DNA from: a bacterium
GTDB lineage: Bacteria; B130-G9
Length of the DNA: 9,151 nt
Assembly (NCBI GenBank): GCA_021160245.1
Contig: JAGHCW010000157.1
Location: 1-9,151, forward strand
Direction of reading: 5' to 3'
This document shows, piece by piece, positions 4,370 through 9,151 of this stretch (position 1 is the first letter of the stretch; the number at the start of each line of letters is the position of its first letter). The translations under genes were made by a program, and so were the position numbers. The notes under the pieces are model-generated. The model did not search any database. It was given only the letters and a program-made list of their open reading frames with translations, and was not told where the DNA came from.

Positions 4370-4900
4370 TTGAAAAGGCGACACCGCCGGACAGCGATCA
4401 TCGTCTTCTCCGTCTTGGCCGTGACCATGTTGGCCATCAATTCATATAGACAACTCGAGGCGCCCACAAAATCGAGCCGGACAGATAGCAATTATTATTA
4501 TTGCACGAGAGTCGTTGACGGCGACACGATCGTTGTGAAGCGGCTCGCCTCGGTCAGACTCATCGGTATCGACACGCCGGAGATGAACTACGACATCGGA
4601 GTTCCCGAACCCCACGCAGTCGAGGCAAAGAGGATGTGTGAACGACTGGCCGACGGAAAGCGGCTTAGGCTGGAGTTCGACATCGAAAAGCGAGACAAAT
4701 ACGGGCGAGTTCTCGCCTATGCGTTCGTTCAAGTGGAGGGCGCGGACAAAGAGGTCTTCTTGAATGGTCGTCTAGTCGAGGCGGGTCTAGCCAGGGCATA
4801 TCACATCCCACCCAACTCGAAGTATAAAAAACGAATCTGGCAACTGCAGAATAAGGCAAAGAAAGCCAATCGAGGCATCTGGTCGGACAAACGGCAATAG
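4370..4900 (+). CDS. Thermonuclease family protein (staphylococcal nuclease-like, SNase/TNase domain)
   Basis: 176 residues. The family hydrolyses DNA and RNA phosphodiesters in a Ca2+-dependent reaction. Residues 1-7 are strongly basic and 8-24 hydrophobic, giving a signal peptide or, lacking a clear AxA site, a membrane anchor; the enzyme should face the periplasm or outside. The SNase domain runs from about 43 to 172. RVVDGDTIVV (47-56) supplies the metal ligand D52. VRLIGIDTPEM (62-72) supplies R63, D68, T69 and E71, matching Arg35, Asp40, Thr41 and Glu43 of the staphylococcal enzyme. DKYGRVLAY (109-117) supplies R113, matching Arg87. GLARAY and NRGIW are typical late motifs. All expected catalytic residues are present, so it is probably active. 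The start is a TTG. It is divergent from the methyltransferase and convergent with the propeller gene, with 40 bases between the stops, so it is probably transcribed alone. It could serve nucleic-acid scavenging; nothing ties it to a defence or secretion system. A short ATT repeat (4491-4502) encodes its Tyr run. Confidence 0.9.
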   Translation: MKRRHRRTAIIVFSVLAVTMLAINSYRQLEAPTKSSRTDSNYYYCTRVVDGDTIVVKRLASVRLIGIDTPEMNYDIGVPEPHAVEAKRMCERLADGKRLRLEFDIEKRDKYGRVLAYAFVQVEGADKEVFLNGRLVEAGLARAYHIPPNSKYKKRIWQLQNKAKKANRGIWSDKRQ

Positions 4901-4940: not shown

Positions 4941-6905
4941 TTATAGCTCCAGAAAATCAAACCTCCCAGGCTCTTCAGGTGCCCGATTCGCAATTGAAAA
5001 CAGCCAAACAGCTACGCCGTCAAAGGCGCAGACGAATTCACCCGAGGCGTCGGCTGCGAATGAGCGAACTGCATCTTTCAGCACAACCTTCCATAGAAGC
5101 TCGCCGCCCAGAACCAAACAAAATAGCGCATTCCTCCGCCTGATGACCTCGATAAACTCCCTCTTCTGATTTCTGATAACCAGCGAACGTCTGCCCGCAA
5201 CTCGCCTGCGCCAGACTACTTTGCCCGCATCATCCAAGAAAAAAGCTGATCCCATTCCAGTGGTAACCAACAATCCGTCCTCAAAGGGCCGAAGTCTGGC
5301 CACGGGCTCCTCAATACAACCCGACCACAATTGACTGCCATAAAGGTCGTATGCTGATACTATCCCGCTGGAATCGCCGATATAAAGAGAGTCATCATCG
5401 ATTGCAAGGTGGCCTGCCGCGCCGTTGAACTCGGTCTCGAAAACCGGCCTACCGGCAAAATCGAGCACCACGGCCCGAGACGCCTCAGCCACGACCATCT
5501 CTTCGCCCGAGGGAGAAAGGCAGAAATAGCGAGCATCTCTGGATTTGAACCACGTCCATTTGAGCTCGCCAAGACTGTCGAAGAGAAAGATATTCCCGGC
5601 GTCATCCATTGCCGCGACCCGATTGCCCGCAGCGTTCAAGGCGAGCATCGCTGTCCCCGCGCGCCGCTGCCAGAGCATCTTGTCATGGCCAAAAGAATAT
5701 AGCCTACCCCCGGTCGCGGCTGCAAAGCGATAAGATTTAGACGCTGTGCAAATGCGAATCGAGTCCCCGAGAGACGCAAGTCTCTTCTGCCGACCGCTCT
5801 CGTCGAGCATGAGCATCCCACCATCGGATGTAGCACAGAGAGTGTACTTGCCTCCCGGGAGCAGCTTGACCTGCGCCTGATGACGACTGGTTGCCCGTCT
5901 GAAGAGGTCTATCGAGTAAATGGGCTTCTTCTCAAGCGGCTCTTCTCTCTCCTGCTCTTGCTCAAGAAAACTGAAACGCGTGCTTTGACCATGAACCAGT
6001 TGATAGCTGTGCAGCGACGACCCCTCATCAACGATAGCGAGAAAGGAGCAGCAATGATCAATATCCCAGAACCGCGGCCTAAACGAGAGCTCAAAGCGAC
6101 CCCTGAGAGCACCATCCTGATCGAGCATTAAAAGCTCCCCATAGCTCGTTCCGAGAAGCAGTGTTGAGCAGCCCTCAAGATAAGCTGCGCACATCACGGG
6201 ATGCCGCGGACGAAAAGCCCTTACATCACCCCCTGTGCTGTCGATAAGATACGCCCCACTCCCGAAAAGCGGCATCACAATCCACTTGCCGGTCGCGCTG
6301 AAACGGGCGACTCCGGAAATCATAGCGAAGCTCCTTGCCCACTCGGTCTCAAAAGCGCCATTGAGCGAGGCGAGAAATGCTCCCGAGTTCCCAACCAGAA
6401 CCCGATCATCATCCCGAGAAATGTTAATGAACTCTATAGGGGCCGAGAACACCATCGAGTCCAAGAACATTCCGTCCCGACTCAAGTTGCTAATCGTCCG
6501 CGAAGACCCACCAATCAGAATCGTGCCGTCCGAAATCCGAATGTCGAATGCCGAGATTAGATAGGAAAACCTCTTGTGCCACAGCAACCGACCGTCAACG
6601 TCGAGAAACGCAAGGCTCCAGTCATGAAAAGATACAACTGTATTCAGACTATCTCTGCTGAGCCGGGCAGCGACAATCCTATCCTTGAATTTCCTGCTCC
6701 AGACGAGCTTCCCATCCGGGCCAACATTGTAAAGCGTCCGCTCTCCGTCGGTGACTACAACGTGCCCAGTCACCGACATGCTTGGGTCCCTTATGACCCC
6801 GATTGAATGGTAAGTCCATCGCTCCTGAATGCTCAGCAGCGCATCCGAATCGGAACTTGGGGCCTGCCTGGCCTGGTCCCCATGCTGTCGCCCGGTTTGC
6901 CTCAA
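4941..6905 (-). CDS. Double beta-propeller protein with PQQ/WD40-like repeats
   Basis: 654 residues from a TTG at 6905, the first usual start after the in-frame stop at 7014-7016; the only internal Met near the N-terminus (residue 43) would cut into the first blade. A weak site (GAGAG) precedes the TTG. The protein is a series of roughly 40-residue four-strand repeats ending in a turn of the form D-x-x-G-x-hydrophobic-x-W, e.g. VGPDGKLVW (61-69), LDVDGRLLW (101-109), YDLYGSQLW (519-527), LDDAGKVVW (557-565), LVLGGELLW (597-605). About seven repeats lie before, and seven or eight after, a charged linker rich in Glu, Lys and Arg (about 314-342), so I read it as two propellers in tandem. Such folds usually bind proteins or ligands; the repeats lack obvious PQQ-dehydrogenase catalytic features, so I name no enzyme activity. 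No signal peptide or membrane segment is visible, which suggests a cytoplasmic location unless the N-terminus is misjudged. The start is 44 bases downstream of the subtilase-like gene on the same strand, so the pair is probably co-transcribed. Confidence 0.85.
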   Translation of the reverse strand: MRQTGRQHGDQARQAPSSDSDALLSIQERWTYHSIGVIRDPSMSVTGHVVVTDGERTLYNVGPDGKLVWSRKFKDRIVAARLSRDSLNTVVSFHDWSLAFLDVDGRLLWHKRFSYLISAFDIRISDGTILIGGSSRTISNLSRDGMFLDSMVFSAPIEFINISRDDDRVLVGNSGAFLASLNGAFETEWARSFAMISGVARFSATGKWIVMPLFGSGAYLIDSTGGDVRAFRPRHPVMCAAYLEGCSTLLLGTSYGELLMLDQDGALRGRFELSFRPRFWDIDHCCSFLAIVDEGSSLHSYQLVHGQSTRFSFLEQEQEREEPLEKKPIYSIDLFRRATSRHQAQVKLLPGGKYTLCATSDGGMLMLDESGRQKRLASLGDSIRICTASKSYRFAAATGGRLYSFGHDKMLWQRRAGTAMLALNAAGNRVAAMDDAGNIFLFDSLGELKWTWFKSRDARYFCLSPSGEEMVVAEASRAVVLDFAGRPVFETEFNGAAGHLAIDDDSLYIGDSSGIVSAYDLYGSQLWSGCIEEPVARLRPFEDGLLVTTGMGSAFFLDDAGKVVWRRRVAGRRSLVIRNQKREFIEVIRRRNALFCLVLGGELLWKVVLKDAVRSFAADASGEFVCAFDGVAVWLFSIANRAPEEPGRFDFLEL

Positions 6906-6949: not shown

Positions 6950-9151
6950 TTAATGGACGACCAGATACGGCCAGGTGTCGCTTCTTCCGCCCGACGCATC
7001 GTATGCAACAACCTCAAGCAGCAGCTCGCCCTGTGCGAGTGGACCGACACCAGAATAGAACGTAAATATACCATCGCCGGCCGCCTCGTCGCCCTGAGTT
7101 CCATCATCCCACAGAAACACGCCAAGCGGCGACTGGTCTTTCAGAAAAAGCTCAACTTCAGTCACGTCTGAGAGGCCGTCAGGATCAAAGACCTCCGCCG
7201 TGAGCTTCAACTCGCCGCCCTGCACAGTCACGGATGAAGCCCCAAAACCGCCCAGTTTTATGACCGGAGAGCCCGAATCAAGCAAGTGGTAACTCGACGT
7301 TCGCCTCGCTCCGCGCATGGCAATTCCGGCGGAACGCCCGGACTTTACTGTTAGATATGGCCACATATCGCTATCCAGACCCGACGAATCCGTCGCGACG
7401 ATGCCTATGGTGTAATTGCCAGCCGCAAACATCCCGGGGAATATGTAGGAGTAGAATGTGAATATCCCATCTCCCCCGCTTGCATCCCCATTCACGCCGT
7501 CGTCATTCATATAAAGACCGGTGGATGCGCCCTCGAAGTAGAGCTCCACGCTACCAATATCGTTATTGCCATCAGGCGTTGAGACTTCGGCCAAAATATA
7601 CAAATCCCCACCAGCTGCCTCAGAGATGAAACTAGTCCCAAATCCAGCGCGGCCAATAACCGGAGCCTCGTTGTTGACAGAACCCGCAAGGGCCGCATGT
7701 AGATCAATCAAACCGTGAACCGGCTTGGCCGACTGCTTGACCGCGCCGATGATCTCGGAATATGGAACATCCGGTCGCTGTGACCGCAAAAGCGCGCAAG
7801 CGCCAGCCCCAAACGCAGCGGCATAGGCGGTGCCGTGAACGAAATCGTAGCCCTGGCGACACCCCTCGTCTATGAGGCGGCAGGGATACGTCGGCAACGT
7901 TGTGAGAATGCCACTCGCATCGCCGAAGGCGCCTGAACCGCCAGGCGCGACAACGTCCACCTTGCTCCCCGTCTGCGAATTGCCAACGTTTGAATAGGCC
8001 GCAACGGCGCCATTCCTGTCAGTTGCGCCGACTGCAAGAACTTGCTCAAAACTCGCCGGATACGTCGCGTCGCCACCGTCATCGCCTGTTCCAGAAACAA
8101 CCACGACATTATGGCTAGCGGCATAGAGAACTGCATCCTCAAGCTGGGCTGACCTCCCATTGAATCCCTCTGGAATAAGTATCACGCCCGCGCCCTGCTC
8201 AACAGCATACTTCACGGCCTTCCACATTGCCTGTCGCGTCCCATCGAATTTAAGAGACATAATCTGCGCTCCCCAAGAAACACCGGCGACATTCCATACC
8301 TCACTAGCGTCGTCCGTGAAACTCGAAATATCATTCGCCTTGGCCGCGACGATGCCTGCCACAGCAGTCCCAAGACCATCTTCGTCGAATATACCATTTG
8401 AACCCTTGCCGTCCCTTGTGAACGACCAGCCATAAACGTCATCAACAAAGTCGTTGCCGTCGTCATCCGACCCGTTACCATCAACCTCGTCCGGGTTGAT
8501 CCAGACGTTATCCCGAAGGTCCGGATGGTTTAGGTCAATACCTGTGCTGACTATCGCCACGATAACCGGCGAGCTCTCGCCTCGTTCCAAATACCAGCCG
8601 GCGGGAGCATTTATGTCGGCCCGCCCGTCAGGATCAAACAGCCCCCACTGCTTGTCAAAACTAGTGTCGCACGGAATGACCATCTCACCCTCAGGAGTTA
8701 GATTGCATTCGTACAGGTGCATGCCCTGAGCCGAGATCGATATGCCATCGATGACACAATCCGAGAAACCGGCCTTGCTAACTGTCAACGTTGTGTTGTC
8801 ATCCACAGGAATCAAATCCAGCAGCGCCCGACCAAGCGAGTCAGTCTCAGTGGAGAACTGTTGACTATTGCCTGAAGTTACCGTGACGGTTGCCGAGAAA
8901 ACCGAGCACTCCGCCGCGAATTCTGAGCCATTGGTAACCTCGATGCCCAAAGTCCCGGTCTCTCCGGCAAGGCCGATATCTATCCTGTATATCACTTCGC
9001 CATCATAGTCCGCTGCCCAAAGGTAGCTGCCATCAAATGCCAGCTCATAAAGCGCAGTGCCCGGAACCGTAGCCCATGCACCGTGCGTTCCGTCCTCAAA
9101 GAGCTGAAAATATATGCTATCGCTGCCGACTGAGGCGGAGCAATAAAGCCC
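6950..9151 (-). CDS. Subtilase-fold (peptidase S8-like) protein lacking the catalytic triad, with two C-terminal Ig-like domains; 5' end outside the window
   Basis: The frame is open to the right edge (733 residues visible); a GTG at 8995 is internal, since the 52 codons before it encode a propeller-like blade (LAFDGSYLWAADYDG). Residues below count from that GTG. Residues 10-100 look like a CarboxypepD_reg beta-sandwich (TDSLGRALLDLIP, TVSKAGFSD). Residues 107-437 have the S8 fold: KQWGLFDPDG, HPDL at 157-160, the Asp/Gly insert DGNGSDDDGNDFVDDVYGW (172-190), AVGAT and DVVAPGG. The triad is gone: VAIVSTG has S150 for Asp, DGLGTAVAG has L208 for His, and HGTAYAAAF has A390 for Ser. The oxyanion Asn is D305. 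The protein should fold like subtilisin but not cleave by its mechanism; binding or a structural role is inferred. Residues 443-551 and 576-681 are two Ig-like repeats, each with a probable Ca2+-binding loop. The protein ends directly after the last strand, without an anchor motif. It is probably exported (signal not visible) and heads the operon with the double propeller. Confidence 0.9.
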   Translation of the reverse strand, partial: GLYCSASVGSDSIYFQLFEDGTHGAWATVPGTALYELAFDGSYLWAADYDGEVIYRIDIGLAGETGTLGIEVTNGSEFAAECSVFSATVTVTSGNSQQFSTETDSLGRALLDLIPVDDNTTLTVSKAGFSDCVIDGISISAQGMHLYECNLTPEGEMVIPCDTSFDKQWGLFDPDGRADINAPAGWYLERGESSPVIVAIVSTGIDLNHPDLRDNVWINPDEVDGNGSDDDGNDFVDDVYGWSFTRDGKGSNGIFDEDGLGTAVAGIVAAKANDISSFTDDASEVWNVAGVSWGAQIMSLKFDGTRQAMWKAVKYAVEQGAGVILIPEGFNGRSAQLEDAVLYAASHNVVVVSGTGDDGGDATYPASFEQVLAVGATDRNGAVAAYSNVGNSQTGSKVDVVAPGGSGAFGDASGILTTLPTYPCRLIDEGCRQGYDFVHGTAYAAAFGAGACALLRSQRPDVPYSEIIGAVKQSAKPVHGLIDLHAALAGSVNNEAPVIGRAGFGTSFISEAAGGDLYILAEVSTPDGNNDIGSVELYFEGASTGLYMNDDGVNGDASGGDGIFTFYSYIFPGMFAAGNYTIGIVATDSSGLDSDMWPYLTVKSGRSAGIAMRGARRTSSYHLLDSGSPVIKLGGFGASSVTVQGGELKLTAEVFDPDGLSDVTEVELFLKDQSPLGVFLWDDGTQGDEAAGDGIFTFYSGVGPLAQGELLLEVVAYDASGGRSDTWPYLVVH
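6953..7669 (-). repeat. Two tandem Ig-like domain repeats at the end of the subtilase-like protein
   Basis: The two copies (7343-7669 and 6953-7270) encode related segments of about 105 residues. Both begin with a Pro-Val-Ile and Gly-Phe-Gly stretch, contain a pair of ValGlu-Leu strands, then the loops DDGVNGDASGGDGIF and DDGTQGDEAAGDGIF followed by TFYS, and end in DMWPYLTV or DTWPYLVV. The repetition is at protein level; the DNA has diverged, so this is an old duplication. The Asp-rich loops resemble Ca2+-binding loops. Confidence 0.65.

Follow-up and report, generated by a model that had tools for sequence, protein, structure and literature searches.

The window analysed here (9,151 bp in all) is an entire contig, C20, of a fragmented Candidatus Coatesbacteria assembly (G000; 3.43 Mb in 244 contigs). 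To our knowledge, almost nothing functional is known about this candidate, uncultured phylum, and a literature search on Coatesbacteria returned only passing mentions. The minus strand of the window carries, at 6950-9151, an uninterrupted reading frame of 733 codons plus a stop that encodes a subtilase relative, termed a pseudo-subtilase below. This frame remains open at the contig end, so that the 5' end of the gene is cut off; the rest lies on another contig of the same assembly (C182), where the translation of the matching segment starts MRRLLLFSITIGVFLITFGADFLQA, a hydrophobic, signal-like beginning, and closes with GLYCSA, the hexapeptide that also opens the window protein. The first-pass annotation had described the frame as free of stops and frameshifts, and this holds for all of its 733 codons, the gene being truncated at its 5' end in the window. 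Read from the hydrophobic N-terminus only, the protein is most likely secreted. (It should be noted that residues are numbered on the window protein, P0001, with residue 1 at codon 9151-9149; the residue numbers of the first-pass annotation become ours by adding 52.) The features of the locus are as follows.

G000:C182:2-607, minus strand: missing 5' end of the pseudo-subtilase gene (N-terminus, signal peptide), located by profile search
8723..8917, minus strand: CarboxypepD_reg domain, below threshold, placed by alignment with the G001 orthologue
7727..8566, minus strand: Peptidase_S8 (subtilase) domain (PF00082), predicted to be catalytically dead
6953..7675, minus strand: two C-terminal Ig-like choice-of-anchor X modules (NF041940), ending SDTWPYLVVH at the stop
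4941..6905, minus strand: downstream gene for a BamB/PQQ-like beta-propeller (PF13360, E=1.1e-16)
G000:C182:690-2096 (L109), L039:5744-7171, L041:3978-5417 and L040:6129-6917, same strand as the pseudo-subtilase: B12-type radical SAM gene directly upstream, in 4/4 genomes

In the orthologues, a signal peptide is followed by some 230 residues of repeated strands, a carboxypeptidase-regulatory-like domain, the S8 domain, and, as the last part of the protein, a pair of Ig-like choice-of-anchor X modules. The regulatory-like domain is a sub-threshold assignment even in the G001 orthologue (PF13620, E=8e-7, 29.7 bits versus a cut-off of 32.3), while the choice-of-anchor X match scores 25.2 bits in the window protein, versus a cut-off of 25, and 33.6 bits, in two stretches, in the G001 orthologue. 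The N-terminal region matches no family and no PDB sequence; the repeated strands seen in a poor full-length AlphaFold model (pLDDT 49, pTM 0.34) suggest that it may be propeller-like. A search of the pseudo-subtilase for an I9-type prodomain found none, and a promoter scan near the gene gave nothing above chance.

The first-pass annotation had recognised a well preserved peptidase S8 fold, and both family and structural comparisons bear this out. The window protein matches PF00082 with E=6.2e-32 and 111.5 bits (gathering score, 21.8), and the four pseudo-subtilase loci described below score 109.6-129.8 bits. An AlphaFold model of the S8 domain, based on 45 sequences, has a mean pLDDT of 93.5 and a pTM of 0.94. 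Its best solved match (Foldseek/VIA) is the deseasin MCP-01 (PDB 3vv3), with Z 44.2 and an rmsd of 1.8 over 298 residues at 34% identity; Z to thermitase is about 41, as befits a subtilisin fold. Deseasin, an S8A enzyme, is also the nearest solved structure by sequence profile (E 5e-28) and has the DxDxNGxxDDVxG insert in common with the window protein, but it is an active protease in which all four of the residues considered next (Asp, His, Ser, and Asn) are intact. The best NCBIfam match is to the type VII secretion mycosins (TIGR03921), at 112-139 bits, far under the equivalog cut-off of 278.75.

All three catalytic residues and the oxyanion Asn are replaced:

8546..8548, minus strand: AGC, Ser202, at the former catalytic Asp; Ser, AGC in 4/4 orthologues
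8372..8374, minus strand: CTT, Leu260, at the former catalytic His; Leu, Val, Thr, or Leu across the four genomes
8081..8083, minus strand: GAT, Asp357, at the former oxyanion Asn; Asp, GAT in 4/4 orthologues
7826..7828, minus strand: GCC, Ala442, at the former catalytic Ser; Ala, GCC in 4/4 orthologues

Alignment to solved subtilases places S202, L260, D357, and A442 opposite D(TG), H(GT), N(DG/DA), and (GT)S, respectively, and about 95 subtilase loci, drawn from the same genome, the phylum, other phyla, and GTDB contigs, fall into the same register in a profile alignment. Every one of these subtilases outside the orthologous group has D/H/N/S at the four positions, wherever its match covers the position. 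Thus both the reading of the codons and the alignments agree with the four replacements that the first-pass annotation had named; the orthologues read S/x/A across the triad, each with Asp in place of the oxyanion Asn. No intact triad is seen elsewhere in the fold, where the only invariant histidines are H209 (in the normal HPDL motif), H347, and H439, and no orthologue with a triad occurs among the four genomes examined; these were the two outcomes named beforehand as evidence against a pseudoprotease. Because nucleophile, base, acid, and oxyanion Asn are all absent, established subtilisin chemistry leaves no room for serine-protease action, and the protein would be unable to hydrolyse peptides by the subtilisin mechanism. 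Two further marks of inactivity that had been proposed do not discriminate: the missing second His (HGTH changed to GTA) has parallels in intact subtilases (HGTAV, HGTSV, and HGTS), and the Pro after the catalytic Ser is also missing from intact subtilases with GTSxxA (GTSVSASF, GTSMAAAH).

The changes extend beyond the catalytic residues. At 16 positions, catalytic ones included, the four pseudo-subtilases are fixed at a residue unlike the active consensus, defined as the residue common to at least 60% of the active subtilases compared; among them, AAGN of the active enzymes has become GTGD. Two changed positions outside the catalytic set are these:

8171..8173, minus strand: Pro327, one of the 16 fixed replacements, in place of a substrate-strand Ser that 98% of the compared active subtilases have
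7835..7837, minus strand: His439, three residues before the lost Ser (HGTA), shared by all the pseudo-subtilases, with no counterpart seen among active relatives

This pattern suggests that the cleft of the pseudo-subtilase S8 domain has been remodelled. As a separate observation, all the pseudo-subtilases have Cys161 (8669-8671) and Cys452 (7796-7798) at positions where active relatives commonly carry other residues; a disulphide between the two could link the N-terminal segment with the central helix. Cys82 and Cys149 of P0001 were noted alongside them.

Orthologues with 56-61% identity are present in all three other Candidatus Coatesbacteria genomes examined (G001, G002, and G003). Their motifs read STG, G(V/T/L)GTAVAG, SGTGD, and HGTAC, so that the same losses are found in 4/4 genomes of the phylum, spanning three genera, with Ser, Asp, and Ala fixed and the His position drifting. 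Four species whose genomes were assembled independently show the same losses, which excludes chance. With synonymous sites near saturation between the genera, the loss is an old, shared state, and the residues had been replaced before the four sampled species diverged. In a tree, the four S8 domains group together with 100% support; the stem of their clade is long (1.13), and no active subtilase is closely related to them. A profile built from the four S8 domains found no pseudo relatives outside the phylum in 386 genomes: the four score 648-712 bits, any other match at most 165 bits, and the best matches outside the group, among those fetched, all have intact D/H/N/S. A scan of the genome collection with the window protein as lone query gave no match. 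Within the genomes examined, the pseudo-subtilase thus appears to be specific to Candidatus Coatesbacteria.

Selection on the dead domain has been measured with a simple method (Nei-Gojobori) in the single species pair G001/G003, whose synonymous changes can still be counted; one pair was used because dS is saturated in the others. The dN/dS of the dead S8 domain is 0.094 (95% bootstrap, 0.055-0.146), and that of two active S8 orthologue pairs from the same two genomes is 0.073 and 0.072. The rest of the pseudo-subtilase gives 0.149 (N-terminal part) and 0.215 (C-terminal modules), and nearby genes give 0.200 (propeller), 0.197 (radical SAM), and 0.185 (FapA). The dead S8 domain is therefore under strong purifying selection, its constraint being close to that of an active protease domain. 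The claim that selection rather than decay explains the losses is strongly supported by these values and by the sharing of the losses among orthologues, which together point to an ancient pseudoprotease under purifying selection rather than to decay or an assembly error.

The neighbourhood is partly conserved. In each of the four genomes, the BamB-like propeller gene adjoins the pseudo-subtilase gene and is read in the same direction, its product being 52-45% identical to those of G001/G002. The upstream radical SAM protein scores far below every curated NCBIfam cut-off, and a pairing of radical SAM and subtilase as a peptide-maturation system (RiPP or QhpD/QhpE-like) was rejected on those scores. 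Further downstream, on the plus strand at 4370-4900 of the window, lies a thermonuclease-like gene (SNase, E=2e-20) whose product has an N-terminal hydrophobic segment; this gene of G000 occupies the place of a FapA-like (DUF342) gene in G001-G003, so that local synteny differs in G000. Neither an active protease nor an obvious client is encoded beside the pseudo-subtilase.

The reading that we favour, at a probability of roughly 60%, is that the protein is a secreted, multidomain pseudoprotease of Candidatus Coatesbacteria that works by binding, as a surface or extracytoplasmic scaffold, adhesin, or receptor. It would be exported by way of its signal peptide-like start and held by anchor modules at its C-terminus, with an S8 domain that retains the subtilisin fold but has none of the catalytic residues and no oxyanion Asn; the remodelled cleft, together with the beta-rich and Ig-like domains, would then make up that scaffold, adhesin, or receptor. 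Both export and a binding role are inferred from this architecture. A more specific proposal, to which we give only a small chance, is that the protein is a phylum-wide surface receptor or assembly factor in which the converted site (with Ser202, Asp357, Ala442, His439, and Pro327 fixed) serves as a novel site for binding a ligand or peptide, and which forms a unit with the radical SAM protein and the propeller.

Dead subtilases are known from CspA and CspC of Clostridioides difficile (PMC6636752, PMC12880746). These have lost two triad residues, CspC keeping D105 with T170 and G485 at the other positions (PMC6636752), and like the Coatesbacteria protein they combine a subtilase fold and replaced catalytic residues with conservation for a non-proteolytic (signal-sensing, scaffold) role (PMC6636752, PMC12880746). 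However, CspA and CspC have a prodomain and a jelly-roll insert of about 130 residues, whereas the Coatesbacteria protein has no such insert: its Asp and Ser sites lie 240 residues apart (S202 to A442), versus 368-380 in CspB/CspC as computed from published residue numbers (PMC6636752). Unlike CspC and CspA, it has also lost all three triad residues and the oxyanion Asn, and it is a secreted beta-rich/Ig-like protein from another phylum. A second parallel is human PCSK9, an S8 member that acts as a binder and is reported to lower its receptor without a need for catalysis (PMC13276728), its subtilase domain likewise binding rather than cleaving targets. PCSK9 cleaves its own prodomain, while the Coatesbacteria protein has neither a triad nor a detected I9-type prodomain. 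More broadly, a survey of five serine-protease families in 91 prokaryotic genomes counted 42 inactive homologues (PMC2605481). Such family members without catalytic residues are the same class of observation; for the Coatesbacteria orthologues, purifying selection has been measured as well, and their replacements form a fixed set. Pseudo-subtilases as a kind are thus already known, and what is new in this orthologous group is the four-residue loss, the domain order, and the phylum.

The Csp proteins also provide the model for an alternative, which seems unlikely, in which the pseudo-subtilase would regulate (inhibit, activate, or chaperone) an active subtilase of the same cell, as CspA/CspC do with CspB. 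CspC, with two residues dead, does share a pathway with active CspB (PMC6636752), and each Coatesbacteria genome encodes several active S8 proteases with intact triads. These active paralogues are, however, far off in the tree, and the 41-kb contig carrying the G001 orthologue (G001:C64) has no active S8 gene, the pseudo-subtilase being its sole S8 match. Of the roles suggested by the first-pass annotation, binding and scaffolding accordingly fit the architecture, whereas inhibition of a neighbouring protease has no support, no active subtilase being encoded nearby.

It is also doubtful that the S8 domain is structural filler between the outer domains, kept for folding with its cleft unused. 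The S8 fold is a stable one that many extracellular multidomain proteins contain, and the His position varies freely; against this, the S8 domain has a lower dN/dS than either the N-terminal part or the C-terminal modules, and cleft positions are fixed at new residues. A conversion of the site to other chemistry, giving a different kind of enzyme (using, for example, His439, Asp357, and Ser202), is very improbable. In its favour, none of Ser202, Asp357, Ala442, and His439 varies among the four orthologues, and the cleft strands have settled on new residues; but a binding site would also be expected to conserve polar residues, and Ala at the nucleophile with a freely varying His position leaves no serine-protease mechanism. 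Finally, gene decay or a sequencing or assembly error, suggested by the short contig whose end cuts the gene, is ruled out by the orthologues and dN/dS: four independent assemblies agree at these positions, the frame has neither stops nor frameshifts, dS is saturated between genera, and selection is purifying.

An automatic annotation would say subtilase or serine protease, which by the known mechanism this protein is not. The group adds a clean case, from neither spore germination nor eukaryotes, of a subtilisin fold under strong selection after the loss of all catalytic residues, and a binding partner, if found, would let the fixed cleft residues show how a protease site was turned into a binding site.

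The C-terminus of the pseudo-subtilase is one of many of its type. The tandem choice-of-anchor X module ends many proteins in all four Coatesbacteria genomes, with a (W/Y)P-x-(L/F)-x-V ending a few residues before the stop, and G000 alone has 33 profile matches to choice-of-anchor X-type C-termini, the S8 ones included. This tandem C-terminus may be a lineage-specific export or surface-attachment signal. Elsewhere in the window, a minus-strand gene at 256-2967 encodes a secreted-looking protein of 903 residues with no Pfam match and a glycosidase-like look to its N-terminus; it, too, has a choice-of-anchor X stretch near its C-terminus.
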